NCBI GenBank assembly: GCA_007118805.1 | Contig: SKQW01000177.1 | Location: 1 to 50,708 of the forward strand | Source: Rhodobiaceae bacterium | GTDB taxonomy: Bacteria; Pseudomonadota; Alphaproteobacteria; Rhizobiales; Tepidamorphaceae | Direction: 5' to 3' | Length of the DNA: 50,708 bases | Made by a program: the position numbers and the translations under genes | Shown here: in pieces, positions 15,195 to 30,479 of the stretch | Position numbering within the stretch: the first letter of the stretch is position 1 | Layout of the letters: each line of letters starts with the position of its first letter | The notes under the pieces: generated by a model | What the model saw: the letters and a program-made list of their open reading frames with translations, nothing else | Told to the model about the DNA's origin: nothing | Databases searched by the model: none

Positions 15195-15680
15195 ATGTCC
15201 GAGCTGACCGTCTATCTCGCCGGCGAGATCCACAGCGACTGGCGCGAGCGCATCGTGGCGGGCGCCAGGGAGGCTGGCCTCGACATTGCCTTTTCCGCCC
15301 CAGTGACCAGCCACGATAACAGCGACGACTGCGGCGTGGCGATCCTCGGCGATGAGGCCGACGGCTTCTGGAAGGACCACAAGGGCGCCAAACTCAACGC
15401 CATTCGCACCCGCACGCTGATCGACAAGGCGGATGTGGTGGTGGTGCGCTTCGGCGACAAATACAAGCAGTGGAACGCCGCCTTCGATGCTGGCTATGCC
15501 GCCGCCCTCGGCAAGGCGCTGATCGTGATGCACGACCCGGCACTGACCCATCCGCTCAAGGAGGTCGATGGCGCCGCGCTGGCGGTGGCCGAGACGCCCG
15601 GGCAGATCGTCGAGATCCTGCGTTATGTCCTGACCGGCGACTTGCCCGGCCGGCCCGCTATCGGGCGTGCAGCCGAATAA
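15195..15680 (+). CDS. YtoQ family protein
   Basis: The 161-residue protein starts MSELTVYLAGEIHSDWRERI, the hallmark of the YtoQ family. It continues with SAPVTSHDNSDDCG and ADVVVVRFGDKYKQWNAAFD, a Rossmann-like pattern related to nucleoside 2-deoxyribosyltransferase-like folds. The biochemical role of YtoQ is not established to my knowledge. The ATG has the moderate ribosome site AGGGAG about eight bases ahead. It lies between pcm and the nlpD-like gene on the same strand. Confidence 0.85.
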   Translation: MSELTVYLAGEIHSDWRERIVAGAREAGLDIAFSAPVTSHDNSDDCGVAILGDEADGFWKDHKGAKLNAIRTRTLIDKADVVVVRFGDKYKQWNAAFDAGYAAALGKALIVMHDPALTHPLKEVDGAALAVAETPGQIVEILRYVLTGDLPGRPAIGRAAE

Positions 15681-17151: not shown

Positions 17152-18045
17152 TCAAACGCCATCCTCGGCGGGCGCGAGCGGCACGCCGAGTCTGCCGGCC
17201 AAATCCTGAATGTATTGCCATGCCACGCGCCCGGAGCGGCTACCGCGGGTGGTCGCCCATTCGAGCGCCTCTCGCTCCAGCCTTTCCGCGTCAAGTCGTA
17301 GGCCGTAATGCTCGGCATAGCCGCGCACCATGGCGAGATACTCGTCCTGGCTGCAGCGGTGAAAGCCGATCCACAGGCCGAAGCGATCGCTGAGCGAGAC
17401 CTTTTCCTCGATCGCTTCGGACGGATTGATGGCGGTTGAGCGCTCGTTCTCCATCATGTCGCGCGGCAGAAGGTGCCGCCGGTTCGATGTGGCGTAGAAT
17501 AGCGCGTTGGCCGGCCGGCCCTCGATCCCGCCCTCAAGCACCGCCTTGAGCGACTTGTAAGAGGTATCGTCGGCGTCGAAGGACAGATCGTCGCAAAACA
17601 CCAAAATGCGCAGATCGTAACCACGAATGAGCGCCATGAGCTCAGGGAGCGATTCAATGTCCTCGCGGTGAATCTCGATAAGCTTCAGGGGCTTATCGCC
17701 GGATTTTGAGAATCTCATGTTGACCGTGGCATGGGTGGCCTTGATCAGTGAACTCTTGCCCATCCCGCGGGCGCCCCATAGCAGGGCGTTGTTGGCGGGC
17801 AGGCCGCGGGCGAAGCGCTCAGTGTTTTCCAGCAAGGTATCGCGGGCCCGGTCGATTCCCTTCAGGAGGGTCATGTCGACGCGATTGACGCGCGGCACCG
17901 GCACGAGCTCGCCGGGCCTGGGGCGCCAAATGAAGGCGTCGGCACCGTCAAGGTCGATCTGACGCGCGGCGGCGGGCGCCATGCGCTCGAGGGCGTCGGC
18001 AATCCGCCGCAACAGGTTCGAGGTGTCGTTGCTGTCCTGCTTCAT
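17152..18045 (-). CDS. DUF815 family AAA ATP-binding protein
   Basis: The 297-residue protein has a Walker A motif in NALLWGARGMGKSSLIKA and a Walker B-like ILVFCDDLSFD. The family-typical segments LKAVLEGGIEGRPANALFYA, TSNRRHLLPR and SLSDRFGLWIGF follow. DUF815 proteins are AAA-type P-loop proteins of unknown function, common in proteobacteria. The ATG at 18045 gives the family N-terminus and has GGAGC about ten bases ahead; the frame runs back to 18090. It converges with the nlpD-like gene and is divergent from yajC. No partner is evident. Confidence 0.88.
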   Translation of the reverse strand: MKQDSNDTSNLLRRIADALERMAPAAARQIDLDGADAFIWRPRPGELVPVPRVNRVDMTLLKGIDRARDTLLENTERFARGLPANNALLWGARGMGKSSLIKATHATVNMRFSKSGDKPLKLIEIHREDIESLPELMALIRGYDLRILVFCDDLSFDADDTSYKSLKAVLEGGIEGRPANALFYATSNRRHLLPRDMMENERSTAINPSEAIEEKVSLSDRFGLWIGFHRCSQDEYLAMVRGYAEHYGLRLDAERLEREALEWATTRGSRSGRVAWQYIQDLAGRLGVPLAPAEDGV

Positions 18046-18273
18046 ATCGCGGTGCTCCGGGGCGGGCCGGCGGTTGAAGGGCCGTGTCAAGAAATCCGCG
18101 CCAAGTGAGGGATGGGCGGAACGTATTGGCGTGCCGAGCGGGGGTCAATGGCCGGCCGGCGCGCGGCGCAACCTTGCGGTTTGCAAAGTCGCGGCCGGTG
18201 AGTATAGTCCGCGCGCTTCGCGACGGCGACCGCGGGCGAGGCTCCACGGAAACAGGATGTTCAGGAGAAGGCG

Positions 18274-18603
18274 ATGTTCATTACGCCCGCTTACGCACAG
18301 GCTGGGGGAGGCGGGGGCGAGTTCCTGATTTCGCTGCTTCCGTTTGTCCTGATCTTCGTGGTGCTCTATTTCCTGATCCTCAGGCCGCAGCAACGCCGCG
18401 TGAAGCAGCATCAGGAAATGGTTGCGTCGCTGCGCCGCGGCGATACCGTGGTCACGTCAGGCGGGCTGATGGGCAAGATTTCGAAGGTGATCGACGACCG
18501 CGAGATCCAGCTCGAGATCGCCGAGGGTGTGCGCGTGCGCGTGGTGCGCAATATGATATCGGAGGTGCGGGCCAAGGGCGAACCGGTCAAACAGGACGGA
18601 TGA
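18274..18603 (+). CDS. yajC: Sec translocon accessory subunit YajC
   Basis: The 109-residue protein has one membrane helix (FLISLLPFVLIFVVLYFLIL), then the conserved RPQQRRVKQHQEMVASLRRG and GDTVVTSGGLMGKI segments. YajC associates with SecD-SecF and the Sec translocon. The ribosome site AGGAGAAGG precedes the ATG. secD starts 42 bases later and secF after it, so this is the standard yajC-secD-secF operon. Confidence 0.96.
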   Translation: MFITPAYAQAGGGGGEFLISLLPFVLIFVVLYFLILRPQQRRVKQHQEMVASLRRGDTVVTSGGLMGKISKVIDDREIQLEIAEGVRVRVVRNMISEVRAKGEPVKQDG

Positions 18604-18645: not shown

Positions 18646-20247
18646 ATGCTCCATTTTCCCCGTTGGCAGGCCATTGCCATCATCATTGTTAGCGTCTTCG
18701 GGATTCTGGCGACGCTGCCCAACCTCTTCGAAAAGGAGGATGTGGCGGCGTGGCCGGACTGGCTGCCGCATCAACAGCTCGTGCTTGGCCTCGATTTGCA
18801 GGGAGGATCGCACCTTCTGCTCGAGGTCGATGCCGAGACCATCCGCGAAGACCGACTGGAGACGCTGCGTGACGATGTGCGCCAGACGCTGCGTCGCGCG
18901 CGCATCGGCTATACCGGGCTGGAGGCCGAGGGGCGAACCGTTCATGTGCAGATCCGCGACAGCGCGGACATCGATCAGGCGGGGCGGGAGCTCGACGAAC
19001 TGGCGACTCAGGTCGGCTCGCTGATTACCGGTGCGCCGGCGACTGAGGACGTCTCGATTAGCCATGTCGGGGACGGGCGATTTGCGCTGGAGCTGACGGT
19101 GGACGGCCTCGACGAGCGGGTTCGCGCCGCGGTCGACCAGTCGATCGAGATCGTGCGCCGCCGCGTGGACGAACTCGGCACGACCGAACCGACGATTCAG
19201 CGCCAGGGTGCCGACCGCATCGTGGTACAGGTCCCCGGCCTCGACGATCCGGAGCGACTAAAGGACTTGCTGGGCCAGACGGCGCAGCTCACCTTCCGCT
19301 TCGTCGACATGTCGATGCCGGCCGAGCAGGCCGTGGAGTCGCGGCCGCCGGCCGACTCGATTATCCTCTATACCGACCAGGGCCAGCCATACCTCATCGA
19401 GCGGCGCACCATCGTCAGCGGCGAGGATCTGGTCGACGCCCAGCCTGGCTTCGACCAGCGTACCAACGAGCCCATCGTCACCTTCCGTTTCGATTCGTCC
19501 GGCGCTCAGCGCTTCGGGCGTGCGACGCAGCAGAATGTCGGCCGGCCCTTCGCGATCATTCTCGACAACGAGGTGATCAGCGCGCCCGTGATCCGCGAGC
19601 CGATCCTCGGGGGCTCGGGCCAAATCAGCGGCGGGTTCACGGTCGAGGAGGCGAACGATCTCGCGATCCTGCTGCGCGCGGGCGCCCTGCCGGCGCCCCT
19701 GACGGTGCTTGAGGAACGGACCGTTGGCCCCGGCCTTGGGGCTGATTCCATCGAGGCGGGACGGATAGCGGCGATAATCGCCGGGGTCCTCGTCGTCGTC
19801 TTCATGATCGCCGTTTATGGGCTGTTCGGCATTTTTGCCAACATCGCGCTGCTGGTGAACATGACGATGCTGTTCGGCATCTTGTCGGCGATCAGCGCGA
19901 CGCTGACACTGCCGGGCATTGCCGGAATCGTATTGACCATCGGCATGGCAGTGGACGCCAACGTGCTGATCTATGAACGAATACGCGAGGAGCAGCGGGC
20001 CGGGCGCAGCGCCATCGCCTCGATCGATGCCGGCTACAGCCGCGCCCTGTCGACTATCATGGACGCCAACATCACCACGCTGATCGCGGCGACGATCCTG
20101 TTCTATCTCGGGTCGGGGCCGATTCGCGGTTTCGCCATCACGCTAGCCATCGGCATCCTGACGACACTGTTCACCGCTTACATGTTCAATCGCCTCGTTG
20201 TCGCCCAGTGGGTTCGCGCGAGGCGGCCGTCCGCGGTGCCGATCTAG
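18646..20247 (+). CDS. secD: Protein translocase subunit SecD
   Basis: The 533-residue inner-membrane protein uses the proton gradient to pull translocating proteins into the periplasm. An N-terminal helix is followed by LGLDLQGGSHLLLEVD, the large periplasmic P1 domain with REIVRRRVDELGTTEPTIQR-type sequence, and five C-terminal helices. GMAVDANVLIYERIREE contains the conserved membrane Asp. Length is normal for alphaproteobacteria. It starts with an ATG and is followed by secF after 28 bases. Confidence 0.97.
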   Translation: MLHFPRWQAIAIIIVSVFGILATLPNLFEKEDVAAWPDWLPHQQLVLGLDLQGGSHLLLEVDAETIREDRLETLRDDVRQTLRRARIGYTGLEAEGRTVHVQIRDSADIDQAGRELDELATQVGSLITGAPATEDVSISHVGDGRFALELTVDGLDERVRAAVDQSIEIVRRRVDELGTTEPTIQRQGADRIVVQVPGLDDPERLKDLLGQTAQLTFRFVDMSMPAEQAVESRPPADSIILYTDQGQPYLIERRTIVSGEDLVDAQPGFDQRTNEPIVTFRFDSSGAQRFGRATQQNVGRPFAIILDNEVISAPVIREPILGGSGQISGGFTVEEANDLAILLRAGALPAPLTVLEERTVGPGLGADSIEAGRIAAIIAGVLVVVFMIAVYGLFGIFANIALLVNMTMLFGILSAISATLTLPGIAGIVLTIGMAVDANVLIYERIREEQRAGRSAIASIDAGYSRALSTIMDANITTLIAATILFYLGSGPIRGFAITLAIGILTTLFTAYMFNRLVVAQWVRARRPSAVPI

Positions 20248-20275: not shown

Positions 20276-21208
20276 GTGCGGCTACTTCGCATCATACCCG
20301 ACGATACCCACATCCGCTTCATGTGGCTGCGGCGGGTCATGCTGCCGCTGTCCATGGCGACCGTGGTGCTCTCGCTGGCGCTTTTCTTTACGGTCGGACT
20401 CAATCTGGGCATCGACTTTCGCGGCGGCACGCTGATCGAGATCCAGACGGAGGGACCAGCCGACATCGGCGAGCTGCGCTCCCAGATCGGGGAACTCGAG
20501 CTGGGTGACGTCCAGATTCAGGAATTCGGCGCCCCCAACGACGTGCTGATCCGGATCGCGCAGCAGGAAGGCGGCGACGCCGCGCAGCAGGTGGCGATAA
20601 GCCAGGTGCGCGACCTGTTGGGCGATGCGGTCGACTACCGCCGCGTCGAGACCGTCGGGCCGACGATCAGCGCCGAGCTGGCGCGGGCCGGCACCATCGC
20701 CGTGATCGTCGCGATCTTTGCCATCATGATCTATATCTGGTTCCGCTTCGAGTGGCAGTTTGCCATCGGCGCGGTGATCGCGCTCGTCCATGACGTGGTG
20801 CTGACCATCGGCGTATTCAGCCTATTCCAGCTCGATTTCGCGCTGGCCAGCATCGCCGCCATCCTCACGATCGTCGGCTATTCGCTCAACGACACGGTGG
20901 TGGTGTACGACCGGGTACGCGAGAACCTCCGGCGTTACAAGAAGATGCCGATCATCGAGCTGCTCGATGTCAGCATCAACCAGATGCTGCCGCGCACGGT
21001 GATGACGTCCTTGACCACTTTGCTCGCGCTCGGCGCCCTCTATGTCTTCGGTGGCGAGGTGATTCGGACCTTCGTGTTCGCCATGATCTGGGGCGTCATC
21101 GTCGGCACCTACTCCTCGGTCTATATAGCCGCGCCGGTGCTGCTCTATCTCGGCCTGCAACGCGGCGCTCCGGCGGCCGGACAGGAGGCGACGCAGCCCG
21201 CCGAATAG
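20276..21208 (+). CDS. secF: Protein translocase subunit SecF
   Basis: The 310-residue partner of SecD starts with GTG at 20276, preceded by GGGAGA. It has an N-terminal helix, then GLNLGIDFRGGTLIEI, and later GYSLNDTVVVYDRVRENLRR with the functional membrane Asp, and PRTVMTSLTTLLAL. The six-helix topology is complete. It is the last sec gene of the operon; the Mth938-domain gene begins 68 bases further on. Confidence 0.97.
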   Translation: MRLLRIIPDDTHIRFMWLRRVMLPLSMATVVLSLALFFTVGLNLGIDFRGGTLIEIQTEGPADIGELRSQIGELELGDVQIQEFGAPNDVLIRIAQQEGGDAAQQVAISQVRDLLGDAVDYRRVETVGPTISAELARAGTIAVIVAIFAIMIYIWFRFEWQFAIGAVIALVHDVVLTIGVFSLFQLDFALASIAAILTIVGYSLNDTVVVYDRVRENLRRYKKMPIIELLDVSINQMLPRTVMTSLTTLLALGALYVFGGEVIRTFVFAMIWGVIVGTYSSVYIAAPVLLYLGLQRGAPAAGQEATQPAE

Positions 21209-21276: not shown

Positions 21277-21654
21277 ATGGAGTTGAAGGAAGCCCATTTC
21301 CCCGGAACGGTGCCGATCGACTCCTATGGGGGAGGCGGTTTCCGTTTCGCGGGCATGTCCCATCGCGGATCAATCATGGCGCTGCCGAGCGGGGTCTATG
21401 CCTGGGATATCGACGATCCGGGCGCGCTGACGCCGAACGCCTTGAGCCGGGTGTTCCAAGAGGCGGCGTTGCCGCAGCTCCTGTTGGTGGGCACCGGACG
21501 CACCCTCACGCCGGCGCCGATGGCGGTCCGCCTTGCCTTCAAGCAAAGGCTGGTCGGACTTGAGACCATGGATACCGGCGCGGCGGCGCGAACCTATAAT
21601 GTCCTCCTGGCGGAGGGGCGCCTGGTCGGGGCGGCGCTGATCGCGGTGGAGTGA
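21277..21654 (+). CDS. Mth938-like domain protein (bacterial NDUFAF3 homologue)
   Basis: The 125-residue protein contains YGGGGFRFAGMSHRGSIMAL, LLLVGTGRTLTPAPM and a C-terminal AARTYNVLLAEGRLVGAALI. This is the small alpha/beta fold of the Mth938 (DUF498) family. Its mitochondrial relative NDUFAF3 is an assembly factor of respiratory complex I. The ATG at 21277 gives the conserved start MELKEAHFPGTVPIDSYG; a GTG at 21211, two bases after the secF stop, is in frame but would add non-conserved sequence. The next gene begins immediately at this stop, so the pair is probably co-translated. The complex I role in bacteria is inference. Confidence 0.85.
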   Translation: MELKEAHFPGTVPIDSYGGGGFRFAGMSHRGSIMALPSGVYAWDIDDPGALTPNALSRVFQEAALPQLLLVGTGRTLTPAPMAVRLAFKQRLVGLETMDTGAAARTYNVLLAEGRLVGAALIAVE

Positions 21655-22518
21655 ATGGGACCGATGCGGCGCCCGGCTACGGCCGAAAGCTATGCGGAAT
21701 GTCGCGAGATTGTGCGGCGCGCCGACAAGGATCGGTTTCTTGCCACCCTGTTCGTGCCGGCCGACCGGCGCGACCACGTCTACGCGCTCTACGCGTTCAA
21801 CGCCGAGGTTGCCCAGGTGCGCGAGAAGGTGAGCGACGCGCTGCCCGGCGAAGTGCGTCTGCAATGGTGGAGCGAAGCGCTGGCCGGCTGCGGCCAGGGC
21901 GAGGTGATGCGCCATCCCGTGGCGGCGGCACTGATCGATACGCTGGACCGGTGCGAACTCGACCCGGAGCCGCTGATCGACCTTCTCGAGGCGCGCGCCT
22001 TCGACCTCTATGACGAGCCCATGGCGACCATGGTCGATCTAGAAACCTATTTGGCGCGCACCGCCGCGATCCCCTTCCACATGGTGGCGCGCATCATCGG
22101 CGCGGGCGGTAACCACGCGGCCGAAACCATGGCCCATTACGGCGGGATCGCCTATGGCCTGGCTGGTCTGCTGCGCGCGCTGGCCCACCATGCCGCTCAG
22201 GGAAAAGTCTATATTCCGGAGGAGTTGCTCGCCCGACACGGGGTGGCCCCGCACGACATATTGATGGCGCGGCGCAGTGCGCCGCTCGACAGGGCGCTGG
22301 CCGAGCTGCGCGACACGGCCCGCGAGCGCCTCGACCGCGCCGCGGCGGCCCATCGCGAACTCCCGAGCGAGGCGGCGCCAGCGCTTCTGCCGCTGGCCCT
22401 GGTTCGGCCCTATCTCGACCGCATGGAGCGGCGGCGCCACGATCCCTTTTCCGACGGCACCATGGCGCAGTGGCGCCGGCAATGGGTGCTGTGGCGTGCG
22501 GCCCGGCGTGCGGGGTAG
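21655..22518 (+). CDS. Squalene/phytoene synthase-like protein lacking Asp motifs (NDUFAF6-like)
   Basis: The 287-residue protein has the all-helical squalene/phytoene synthase fold: RFLATLFVPADRRDHVYALY, LPGEVRLQWWSEAL, and YGGIAYGLAGLLRALAHHAA. The aspartate-rich motifs that bind prenyl diphosphates via magnesium are absent: position one reads AFNAEVAQVREK, and position two reads LLRALAHHAAQGKVYIPEE. It is therefore unlikely to be a catalytic prenyl synthase. It resembles NDUFAF6, a mitochondrial complex I assembly factor of the same fold. It starts with the ATG directly at the stop of the NDUFAF3-like gene. No carotenoid or hopanoid genes are nearby, which supports the non-synthase reading. 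Confidence 0.85.
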   Translation: MGPMRRPATAESYAECREIVRRADKDRFLATLFVPADRRDHVYALYAFNAEVAQVREKVSDALPGEVRLQWWSEALAGCGQGEVMRHPVAAALIDTLDRCELDPEPLIDLLEARAFDLYDEPMATMVDLETYLARTAAIPFHMVARIIGAGGNHAAETMAHYGGIAYGLAGLLRALAHHAAQGKVYIPEELLARHGVAPHDILMARRSAPLDRALAELRDTARERLDRAAAAHRELPSEAAPALLPLALVRPYLDRMERRRHDPFSDGTMAQWRRQWVLWRAARRAG

Positions 22519-22633: not shown

Positions 22634-22930
22634 ATGCCCGAGCCCTGGATAGCGGTACTCCTATTCGCGGCCTTCCTTGTCGCGGCTTGGGTCTATGTGG
22701 CAATGGCCAGGCATCCCGGTCAGAAGCCGCTGGCGGCCTATCTGATCTTCGTTGTCGCCTTCTCGGTGACGGTCGGGCTCGTCTACGGCCTGCTGGTCTC
22801 CCTCATCGCGCGGATTGGCGTTGTCGGCAATCTCTCTCTGGCCCTCGCGGTGGCCGTCGCCGCGGTGGTCGCGTTCCTGATCGCACGCATGCTTATCCGG
22901 CGGTCTCCGCGTGCCTCACCGCCGCTGTGA
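22634..22930 (+). CDS. Small three-helix membrane protein, unknown
   Basis: The 98-residue protein is almost entirely hydrophobic, with three likely membrane helices at about 5-24, 33-59 and 65-86, and a basic Arg/Pro-rich tail (RMLIRRSPRASPPL). GGCAGGAAAAGC precedes the ATG, a good ribosome site. I recognise no family. It follows the NDUFAF6-like gene by 115 bases on the same strand and precedes another small gene by 40 bases, so it may be the end of the sec transcript. It could be lineage-specific. Confidence 0.6.
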   Translation: MPEPWIAVLLFAAFLVAAWVYVAMARHPGQKPLAAYLIFVVAFSVTVGLVYGLLVSLIARIGVVGNLSLALAVAVAAVVAFLIARMLIRRSPRASPPL

Positions 22931-22970
22931 ACGCGGCGGTTCTCAGGCGACCCATGGCAGGCGAAGGGCG

Positions 22971-23342
22971 ATGAAGCACCCGATAATCGACAAGGCTCTG
23001 GTTTCGATCGACTTTCCCGACAAGTTCTATTCTGGTTCCTTCGGGCGGCACGCGACCTTTGATCTGAAGGTAGACGAGATCGGGCTGCATCTCACACTTG
23101 AGAGCGGCGGCGCGCAGAAGCGTCGGGTCGGAATCCATCTCCACCACTATCTGCTGGGTGAGATTGTCGAAGCGATGGCAGCCGAGTTGGCTGCGGCACG
23201 CGATCTGCCCGTTGACCGGCGTCAAGAAATCCGCGAAGCAGCGCTTGTGCTGGCGGAGGCGGCCGCGCCTGTCGAGGCGGAGGCCGGAGCGGCTAAGCGG
23301 CGGCCACCTGGTGGGCGGCGAGCCAGCCATCGAGATCGTTGA
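22971..23342 (+). CDS. Hypothetical protein overlapping trmFO tail to tail
   Basis: The 123-residue protein begins [20 protein letters not shown] with GAAGGG just ahead. It has a plausible globular N-terminal half ([40 protein letters not shown]), then an Ala/Glu-rich helix and a basic end. I do not recognise a family. The last 50 bases (23293-23342) overlap the 3' end of trmFO on the opposite strand. The overlap makes the extreme C-terminus Arg-rich and unlike the rest. Confidence 0.6.
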
Positions 23343-24699
23343 GCGCGCGCGCCGTGGTGGCGTGCTTCTTTGCCAGTGACTTCTCCTTGCCGCGCAACCT
23401 TCTGCCCACGGGGCGCGGGATCTCGACCGGGGGAAACAGGCCAAAATTGACGTTCATCGGCTGGAAGCTGCGCGAGCCGTCCTGGTCGGCCGCCAGGTGG
23501 CCACCGGTGATATGGGCGAGAAGCGCCCCGAGCGCCGTCGTTTGCGGCGGCGGCGAGACCGGCTCGCCCTTGCGCTCGGCGGCGGCGAAGCGGCCGGTCA
23601 GGAGGCCGATCGCGGCCGACTCCACATAGCCTTCGACACCGGTGATCTGGCCGGCGAAGCGCAGCCGCGGCATCGCCCGTAAGCGCAGCGTGGCATCGAG
23701 CAGCCGCGGGCTGTTGAGGAAGGTGTTGCGGTGCAGGCCGCCGAGCCGGGCGAACTCGGCCCGCTCGAGCCCCGGGATCATCCGGAATATGTCGGCCTGG
23801 GCGCCGTATCTCAGCTTGGTCTGAAACCCGACCATGTTGTACAGCGTGCCGAGCGCGTTGTCCTGGCGGAGCTGGACGACGGCATGGGGCTTGACGTCGG
23901 GTTGGTGCGGATTAGTCAGCCCGACCGGCTTCATCGGCCCGTGGCGCAGGGTCTCGCGGCCGCGCTCGGCCATTACCTCGATGGGCAGGCAACCGTCGAA
24001 ATAGGGCGTCGACGCCTCCCAGTCGCGGAACTCGGTCTTGTCGCCGGCAAGCAGCGCGTCGACGAAGGCGTAGTACTGGTCCCGGTCGAGCGGGCAATTG
24101 ATGTAATCCGCTCCCGTCCCGCCGCCGGGGCCCGGCTTGTCGTAGCGCGACTGGAACCAAGCCTTCGAAAAGTCGATGGTCTCCTTGTAGGCGATCGGGG
24201 CGATGGCGTCGAAAAAGGCAAGCTCCGTCTCGCCGGTCAGGGCGGCGATGGCCTGCGACAGGCCCGGCGAGGTGAGGGGGCCGGTGGCGATGATCACCGA
24301 ATCCCAGTCCGCCGGAGGCAGGTCCGGAATCTCCTCGCGGCGGATTTCGATCAGCGGGTCGGCTTCAAGCGCTTCGGTCACAGCGTCGGAGAAGCCGTCG
24401 CGATCGACCGCCAGGGCGCCCCCGGCGGGCAGCTTGTGGGCATCGCCCGAGCGCATAATGAGCGAGCCGCAACGGCGCATTTCCTCGTGAAGCAAGCCCA
24501 CGGCATTACTCTGCGCATCGTCGGAGCGGAACGAATTGGAGCAGACGAGCTCGGCGCAGCCCCCGGTCTTGTGGGCGTCGGTGCCGCGCTCCGGTCGCAT
24601 CTCGTGAAGCACGGCCGGCACTCCGGCCCGCGCGATCTGCCAGGCAGCTTCCGAGCCGGCGAGGCCGGCCCCGATGACATGTAAAGCTTGGTGCATCAT
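23293..24699 (-). CDS. trmFO: Methylenetetrahydrofolate--tRNA-(uracil-5-)-methyltransferase TrmFO
   Basis: The 468-residue flavoenzyme makes 5-methyluridine at position 54 of tRNAs with methylenetetrahydrofolate as carbon donor. The FAD motif [16 protein letters not shown] stands at the N-terminus. [20 protein letters not shown] contains one conserved catalytic-region Cys, and [17 protein letters not shown] another. [29 protein letters not shown] and [12 protein letters not shown] are diagnostic. Two adjacent ATG codons (24699 and 24696) are possible starts, and a TTG at 24708 is less likely; no strong ribosome site is seen. Its 3' end overlaps the convergent hypothetical gene. Confidence 0.95.
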
Positions 24700-24764
24700 G
24701 CTGCGCAAGGTAGGATGAGCGTAAGCCTAGGACAAGCCGCTGTAGTTGGCGTTGAGCGGCAAGC

Positions 24765-27432: not shown

Positions 27433-30312
<2,880 letters not shown>

Positions 30313-30479
30313 GTTTGGACGGCTCCGAGATGGAAGCGGATGGCGGCGCGCCGCCGGCCGGCGCATTGGGCTAGTTTGCGGGATATGAGGTTCGTTACAA
30401 AGCTTGCAGCAGGCTCCCGAAACGAACGTCAAATCCAAAACCACACGAGAGTCATAAAGTTGCTGGTGTCCTTGTCGAC

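Follow-up and report, generated by a model that had tools for sequence, protein, structure and literature searches.

Two genes behind secDF in Alphaproteobacteria resemble NDUFAF3 and NDUFAF6, and the second appears to be a non-catalytic factor of native complex I

NDUFAF3 and NDUFAF6 are human disease genes, and the locus described here raises the question of whether their bacterial look-alikes also serve complex I, or whether one of them is simply an enzyme of isoprenoid chemistry. The window, the whole 50,708-nucleotide stretch of DNA that was analysed, carries on its plus strand yajC (18274..18603; TIGR00739, 95.7 bits, cut-off 44.2), secD (18646..20247; TIGR01129, 498 bits, cut-off 244.4) and secF (20276..21208; TIGR00966, 323.5 bits, cut-off 160). 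Behind secF on the same strand lies a 125-aa gene with an Mth938/DUF498 domain, the domain that NDUFAF3 carries. This NDUFAF3-like gene is called AF3 here (21277..21654, ATG to TGA; PF04430, E 4.6e-29, whole profile covered), and its best solved relative is 2fi9 (E 1.2e-35). Directly after the AF3 stop codon, in frame and with zero spacing, comes the ATG of a 287-aa gene with the squalene/phytoene synthase (SQS_PSY) fold. This NDUFAF6-like, apparently non-catalytic gene is called AF6 (21655..22518, plus strand, ATG to stop; PF00494, E 4.7e-62). The order proposed in a sequence-only reading of this DNA, an Mth938 gene and then an SQS_PSY-fold gene set without spacing behind yajC-secD-secF, was confirmed by open frames, Pfam and NCBIfam.

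The surroundings of these five genes are as follows. Upstream of yajC are a DUF815 ATPase gene (17152..18090, minus strand; PF05673, E 1.2e-104), often found there in related loci too, pcm and a peptidoglycan-endopeptidase-like gene, the last with no model above cut-off. A YtoQ-family nucleoside 2-deoxyribosyltransferase-like gene (15195-15680, plus strand; PF11071, E 1.5e-65) sits between pcm and the endopeptidase-like gene. Downstream of AF6, on the opposite strand, are trmFO (23293..24708, minus strand; TIGR00137, 518.8 bits, cut-off 428.65) and uvrA (27433-30444, minus strand). Two small plus-strand frames between AF6 and trmFO, 22634-22930 and 22911-23342, gave no Pfam match, and the first resembles a short membrane protein. 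NDUFA12 and an NDUFAF7-like gene were found elsewhere in the window's genome, as were pieces of NuoD on different contigs.

Among the results that would speak against it, the sequence-only reading had named a firm placement of AF6 by profile with HpnC, HpnD or CrtB. No such placement was obtained. AF6 scored 130 bits with the curated NCBIfam model for HpnD (cut-off 278.6), 76.9 bits with HpnC (250.45) and 71.4 bits with CrtB (550), so that even its best match, HpnD, was far under the cut-off. The two sites of the catalytic DxxxD motifs were located by alignment with catalytic paralogues. At the first, AF6 reads AQVRE (residues 53-57; 21811..21825, plus strand), which is AxxxE, and at the second it reads ALAHH (residues 175-179; 22177..22191, plus strand), which is AxxxH; in the catalytic controls, DxxxD stands at the two sites in 12 of 12. 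The same was seen in A1, an alignment of 38 AF6 proteins. There, 30 of the 38 carry AxxxE and 4 carry AxxxD at the first site, 20 carry AxxxH and 2 SxxxH at the second, and none has DxxxD at either. The pattern is looser than in A1 when the AF6 rows are extended to 81, with AxxxE or AxxxD in 49, AxxxH or SxxxH in 29 and a gap at the second site in 7. DDxxD did occur in 2 of the 80 AF6 frames from the best 80 named loci described below, in the N-terminal tail and away from the motif position. AF6 also has residues of its own. D24, R27, R68, W71 and R114 are present in 76, 68, 79, 77 and 68 of the 81 rows, respectively, and in at most 1, 0, 2, 2 and 0 of the 12 catalytic controls.

The fold itself is that of the enzymes, as far as prediction goes. 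The AlphaFold2 model of AF6 has a pLDDT of 95.1 and a pTM of 0.93; its best Foldseek match was the CrtM-like structure 8is6 (TM 0.86), HpnC matched with a TM of 0.78, and a search of the PDB with A1 returned only synthases and prenyl transferases. Shared fold and PF00494 membership would also be expected of a catalytically competent squalene/phytoene synthase, whether HpnC, HpnD or CrtB. The scores below cut-off and the two missing DxxxD motifs led us to rule this candidate out. Moreover, AF6 was the only SQS_PSY gene found in the window's genome, which is 93% complete, and consequently no HpnC/HpnD pair was found there. A catalytic AF6 is hardly credible on these data.

The relationship of AF6 to the catalytic families was examined with trees. 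A larger set was thinned to about every second row, and in the resulting tree of 72 rows AF6 formed one clade with an SH-aLRT of 94 (91 when a small third paralogue is included), apart from the HpnC-, HpnD- and CrtB-type rows. A FastTree built from 152 rows, whose labels were faulty, gave AF6 no side of its own; the best split also held 20 catalytic-labelled rows and had a support of 0.44. Some HpnC-like labels had called trimmed rows motif-less, and the 71 rows of the smaller tree besides the window were re-checked on full frames. On the catalytic side, the motif was seen within the first 200 residues in 38 of 44 rows, elsewhere in the frame in 3 (L058, L097, L158) and not at all in L206, L042_2389 and L145_6259. 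On the AF6 side, 25 of 27 rows are without the motif, and the two with it (L074_6997 and L092_9998) are the third paralogue. With its domain and its lost motifs, AF6 fits the NDUFAF6-like label that it was first given, as AF3 with its DUF498 domain fits the NDUFAF3-like one.

The third paralogue is SQS_PSY-like, has an IDDxVDD-type motif and lies directly beside AF6 at L074:6997-8037 (minus strand), L092:9998-10960 (plus), L138:7011-7985 (plus) and L152:4746-5645 (plus). DDxxD-bearing SQS_PSY-like frames were also seen a few kilobases from AF6 in L065, L075, L079, L080, L097 and L107. Outside Alphaproteobacteria, 20 loci were picked from the matches in other classes, and in 19 of them the best match bears DDxxD. 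The DDxxD motif is missing from L206, but this candidate was rejected as an AF6 since it groups with HpnD-like rows in the tree. It looks like an HpnD-like protein (L206:6310-7275, plus strand) that lost its first DxxxD motif independently of AF6.

The lost motifs can be compared with those of mitochondria. A paper on a nematode homologue (PMC12470011) gives AxxxD and AxxxH/SxxxH as the forms found at the two sites in the human and Arabidopsis proteins, and other letters for Drosophila NDUFAF6. A second paper (PMC8007014) describes NDUFAF6 and its orthologues as lacking the DxxxD motifs. The window's AF6 thus has a glutamate at the first site where the human and Arabidopsis proteins have an aspartate, and shares AxxxH at the second. 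In bacteria, the loss of the catalytic motifs is a direct observation on the AF6 clade. Set against the published NDUFAF6 motifs, it suggests that the loss, often with similar replacing residues, was already present in bacteria and most likely predates mitochondria. Both factors also appear in a list for the jakobid Andalucia godoyi (PMC7050145), in which NDUFAF3 and NDUFAF6 are given and NDUFAF4 is undetected.

To see how widely the gene order holds, we drew one genome from each of 114 alphaproteobacterial families. DUF498 was found in 63/114 families. AF6 was found in 70/114, the 78 families with A1 matches minus 8 judged catalytic only; of these 8 calls, four were made on a visible motif (G037, G059, G098, G107), two on a pair of side-by-side matches plus score (G040, G060) and two on score alone (G096, G111). 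The 66 DUF498 matches gave 64 loci after removal of the window's own and of one 21.6-bit fragment, and up to about 8 kb per side was fetched for each. Both yajC and secD were present on the same strand in 61 of the 64 fetched stretches, and yajC, secD and secF in 58. In 47 loci, a separate secF frame ends no more than 400 bases upstream of AF3 or overlaps it by up to 60. The three loci without the yajC-secD pair are L082, which has yajC only, and L118 and L124. The latter two are divergent second copies of DUF498 placed elsewhere (L118:7925-8272 and L124:8005-8397, both minus strand), and the DNA fetched around them contains no yajC, secD or secF. NuoD, the one nuo gene examined in this respect, never falls within a fetched AF3 locus, to judge by its coordinates. 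The neighbourhood of AF3 and secDF is therefore conserved: SecDF-YajC and AF3 are co-located and, to judge from the spacing of the genes, probably co-expressed.

The position of AF6 is less constant. It lies downstream of AF3 on the same strand in 44 of the 64 loci, a count that includes L076 and also L115, whose 37-bit match is outside the 70 families. Of these 44 loci, just 5 (L076, L100, L106, L109, L115) have the two genes side by side. Eleven frames from the gaps between AF3 and AF6 were scanned: five matched Urate_ox_N, two were superoxide dismutases and four had no match, two of the four being from loci without AF3. All seven matched frames are on the strand opposite AF3. The Urate_ox_N-type genes, of 169-213 aa, match only the C-terminal part of PF06181 and were seen in five alphaproteobacterial loci (L064:8546-9187, minus strand; L082:8375-8986, minus; L103:7239-7865, plus; L073:8335-8937, minus; L098:7331-7840, plus).

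Closer to the window, the picture is tighter. The best 80 named loci are the closest matches and so speak for the window's near kin rather than for the class; by their titles (Bosea, Microvirga, Methylobacterium, Rhodoplanes and others), they presumably belong nearly all to Hyphomicrobiales genera. AF3 is upstream of AF6 in 79 of the 80, with a gap of less than 100 bases in 71 of the 79, and trmFO is downstream of AF6 in 61/80. No fusion of AF3 with AF6 turned up in the window's frames or in those of a different set of 80 fetched loci. A block running pcm-M23 peptidase-DUF815-yajC-secD-secF-AF3-AF6-trmFO-uvrA recurs largely whole. A tight AF3-AF6 pair is therefore typical of the window's relatives (71/79), whereas the class as a whole has a looser neighbourhood (5/44). 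Of the gene-neighbourhood comparison called for by the sequence-only reading, the side joining AF3 to yajC and secD held up and the side joining AF3 to AF6 proved looser across the class.

Across the 114 families, AF3 and AF6 occur together in 55 and are both missing from 36; 8 and 15 families have one without the other. Among NuoD-positive families, their co-occurrence has an odds ratio of 11 and a p of 5e-7, uncorrected for kinship; within each genome-size class p is only about 0.07. These figures bear on the possibility that the gene order was simply inherited and says nothing about function, and that AF3 and AF6 have separate jobs. The recurrence of the wider pcm-to-uvrA block would be expected if this were so, as would the rarity of adjoining pairs across the class and the independence of the two genes in 23/114 families. 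On the other hand, the short gaps in near relatives and the co-occurrence, with the limits just given, speak against mere inheritance, and we judge this explanation decidedly unlikely. The same 23 families weaken the proposal of an ancestral AF3-AF6-SecDF unit, which was too strong: the two genes part in these families and, as shown below, in the family f23 as well, where 59 of 60 genomes lack AF3. A fixed unit is not supported. That the two proteins act together with SecDF is something we infer from gene order.

Next, the presence of both genes was compared with that of complex I, using NuoD as its marker. Neither AF3 nor AF6 was found in any of the 12 NuoD-less families. All 12 of these genomes are smaller than 2.05 Mb, and within the <2.05 Mb class the link to NuoD is not significant for AF6 (p 0.08) or AF3 (p 0.16), while NDUFA12, a true complex I subunit, is still tied to NuoD (p 2e-5). 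The whole-class co-occurrence with NuoD (p 3e-5 and 4e-6) was set aside as proof because it is confounded with genome size, and our case does not rest on it. AF3 is missing from 39/102 NuoD-positive families and AF6 from 32/102; in many lineages, then, complex I can do without these factors. Family f122, with NuoD in 61/61 genomes, offered no complex-I-less genome.

A family in which complex I varies was more telling. We sampled 60 genomes of one alphaproteobacterial family, f23. NuoD was above cut-off in 53/60; in 5 there was none above it, only remote matches or nothing; and its state was undecided in G465, where it is cut at a contig end, and in G472, a fragmented assembly, both of which have AF6. 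In 7 of the 53, NuoD was found only as a NuoC-NuoD fusion, with PF00329 and PF00346 in one frame. AF6 was present in 45 of the 46 genomes with a separate NuoD, in 0/7 with fused NuoCD only and in 0/5 with no NuoD. Three genomes have both a separate NuoD and a fused NuoCD, and all three, which are among the 45, have AF6. The sole exception is G500 (4 contigs, 100% complete), where a separate NuoD is present and AF6 was not found. In the 45 positives, the AF6 call was checked by motif in 23 and accepted on a score of more than 200 bits in 22. The separate NuoD was called by Pfam in 10/46 and in the remainder by score and open-frame length, including the Pfam-unscanned 614-residue frame of G492. 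The AF6 search reached an E of 1e-15, and a very divergent AF6 with a match weaker than that would escape it.

These 12 absences do not look like 12 separate events. A tree of HpnD was built from the 12 negatives, G500 and 10 positives, 23 genomes out of the 60, and it joins the negatives in a single clade with support of 97/93, the bootstrap not being fully settled. The family thus seems to record a single event in which AF6 and native complex I were lost together. AF3 and AF6 separate cleanly here: most genomes keep AF6 and a complex I with separate NuoD, and 59/60 are without AF3, whatever their complex I. AF3 thus does not follow complex I in f23. The link to complex I that had been proposed for both genes therefore survives for AF6, which goes with the native enzyme in this family, and is tempered by the many complex I-bearing families that lack one factor or the other.

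From the fit of its complex I pattern, f23 would be the acetic acid bacteria. PMC4596401 describes Gluconobacter oxydans as having no nuo operon and Gluconacetobacter diazotrophicus as having two, and in Asaia one nuo operon is thought to have been gained, possibly horizontally, and the common one lost. A literature search that left out most subscription journals returned no report of the f23 result, no paper joining NDUFAF6 with Acetobacter and no paper joining NDUFAF3 with YajC.

In all 12 AF6-less f23 genomes, the best-matching protein bears DDxxD, meaning that an SQS_PSY gene has been kept. A general loss of SQS_PSY chemistry consequently fails to explain the pattern. The finding also bears on the idea that AF6 binds an isoprenoid, such as quinone or a hopanoid precursor, without turning it over, and senses or delivers it. 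An isoprenoid-synthase fold, predicted with high confidence, would suit such a role. Both Mg-diphosphate motifs are lost, though, and the AF6-less genomes retain their DDxxD-bearing relatives, which makes isoprenoid binding improbable as the function of AF6.

Another explanation is that AF3 and AF6 serve membrane-protein insertion at large, together with SecDF-YajC and for many clients, of which complex I would be the one left in mitochondria. This would account for the presence of yajC and secD near AF3 and the absence of NuoD from the fetched AF3 loci, and for the many complex-I-bearing families without both factors. To our knowledge, SecDF is near-universal. Against this, families without AF3 or without AF6 are common, and AF6 is gone from the f23 clade that has no native complex I, where membrane-protein insertion must presumably continue. 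We consider a general role unlikely, though it deserves more weight than an inherited gene order.

The reading that we prefer, with a probability of roughly two in three, is that AF3 and AF6 are the alphaproteobacterial NDUFAF3 and NDUFAF6, with AF6 chaperoning one of the membrane subunits of native complex I without catalysis and AF3, on weaker grounds, as its partner. As an assembly factor of native complex I, AF6 is supported by the data above; AF3 is less supported in such a role. AF6 is an SQS_PSY fold whose two catalytic aspartate motifs were lost in bacteria. It most likely works at the cytoplasmic face of the membrane, where it would chaperone the native complex I subunit without catalysis. 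By analogy with NDUFAF6, the client is most likely NuoH, the counterpart of ND1. Expression from the secDF cluster could bring AF3 to sites of membrane insertion, where it may act in the same process as AF6. More tentatively, AF3 probably helps the quinone-reducing module to meet the freshly inserted membrane arm.

A fuller history can be suggested, on which we lean neither way. AF6 would have been a dedicated non-catalytic factor of alphaproteobacterial complex I before mitochondria. A lineage like the acetic acid bacteria would have discarded it on replacing or losing its own complex I, because the acquired, enterobacterial-type enzyme with fused NuoCD does not use AF6. Mitochondria would have kept AF6 because they kept the native enzyme, and AF3 would be a separable partner throughout. 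Should the bacterial proteins share the function of NDUFAF6 and NDUFAF3, its mechanism becomes accessible in tractable bacteria, and lineages with two kinds of complex I would then offer a built-in specificity control.

Among known systems, HpnD, HpnC and CrtB have the fold and PF00494 in common with AF6. AF6 differs in being without both Mg-binding motifs, in scoring far under their cut-offs and in conserving D24, R27, R68, W71 and R114, which are mostly missing from those enzymes. NDUFAF6/C8orf38 shares with AF6 the SQS_PSY fold and the absence of both DxxxD motifs; the replacing letters of AF6, mostly AxxxE/AxxxD at the first site and often AxxxH at the second, resemble the published ones in part. 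Unlike NDUFAF6, AF6 is bacterial and encoded beside the secDF-AF3 block, and its role with NuoH is argued by analogy. AF3 has the Mth938/DUF498 domain in common with NDUFAF3/C3orf60, but complex I is frequently found without AF3. The loss of motifs in NDUFAF6 is already in print, and the f23 comparison is a modest new test. Lemire (2017) reportedly treats the evolution of NDUFAF6. The linkage of NDUFAF3 and C8orf38 to secDF, and its reading, are also said to be known already: Saada et al. (2009, Am J Hum Genet 84:718) reportedly described a link of NDUFAF3 with both the SecF/SecD/YajC cluster and C8ORF38. By this account, that work shares with ours the neighbourhood and the idea; here, the linkage is counted over 114 families and joined to tests by motif, tree and replacement of complex I.
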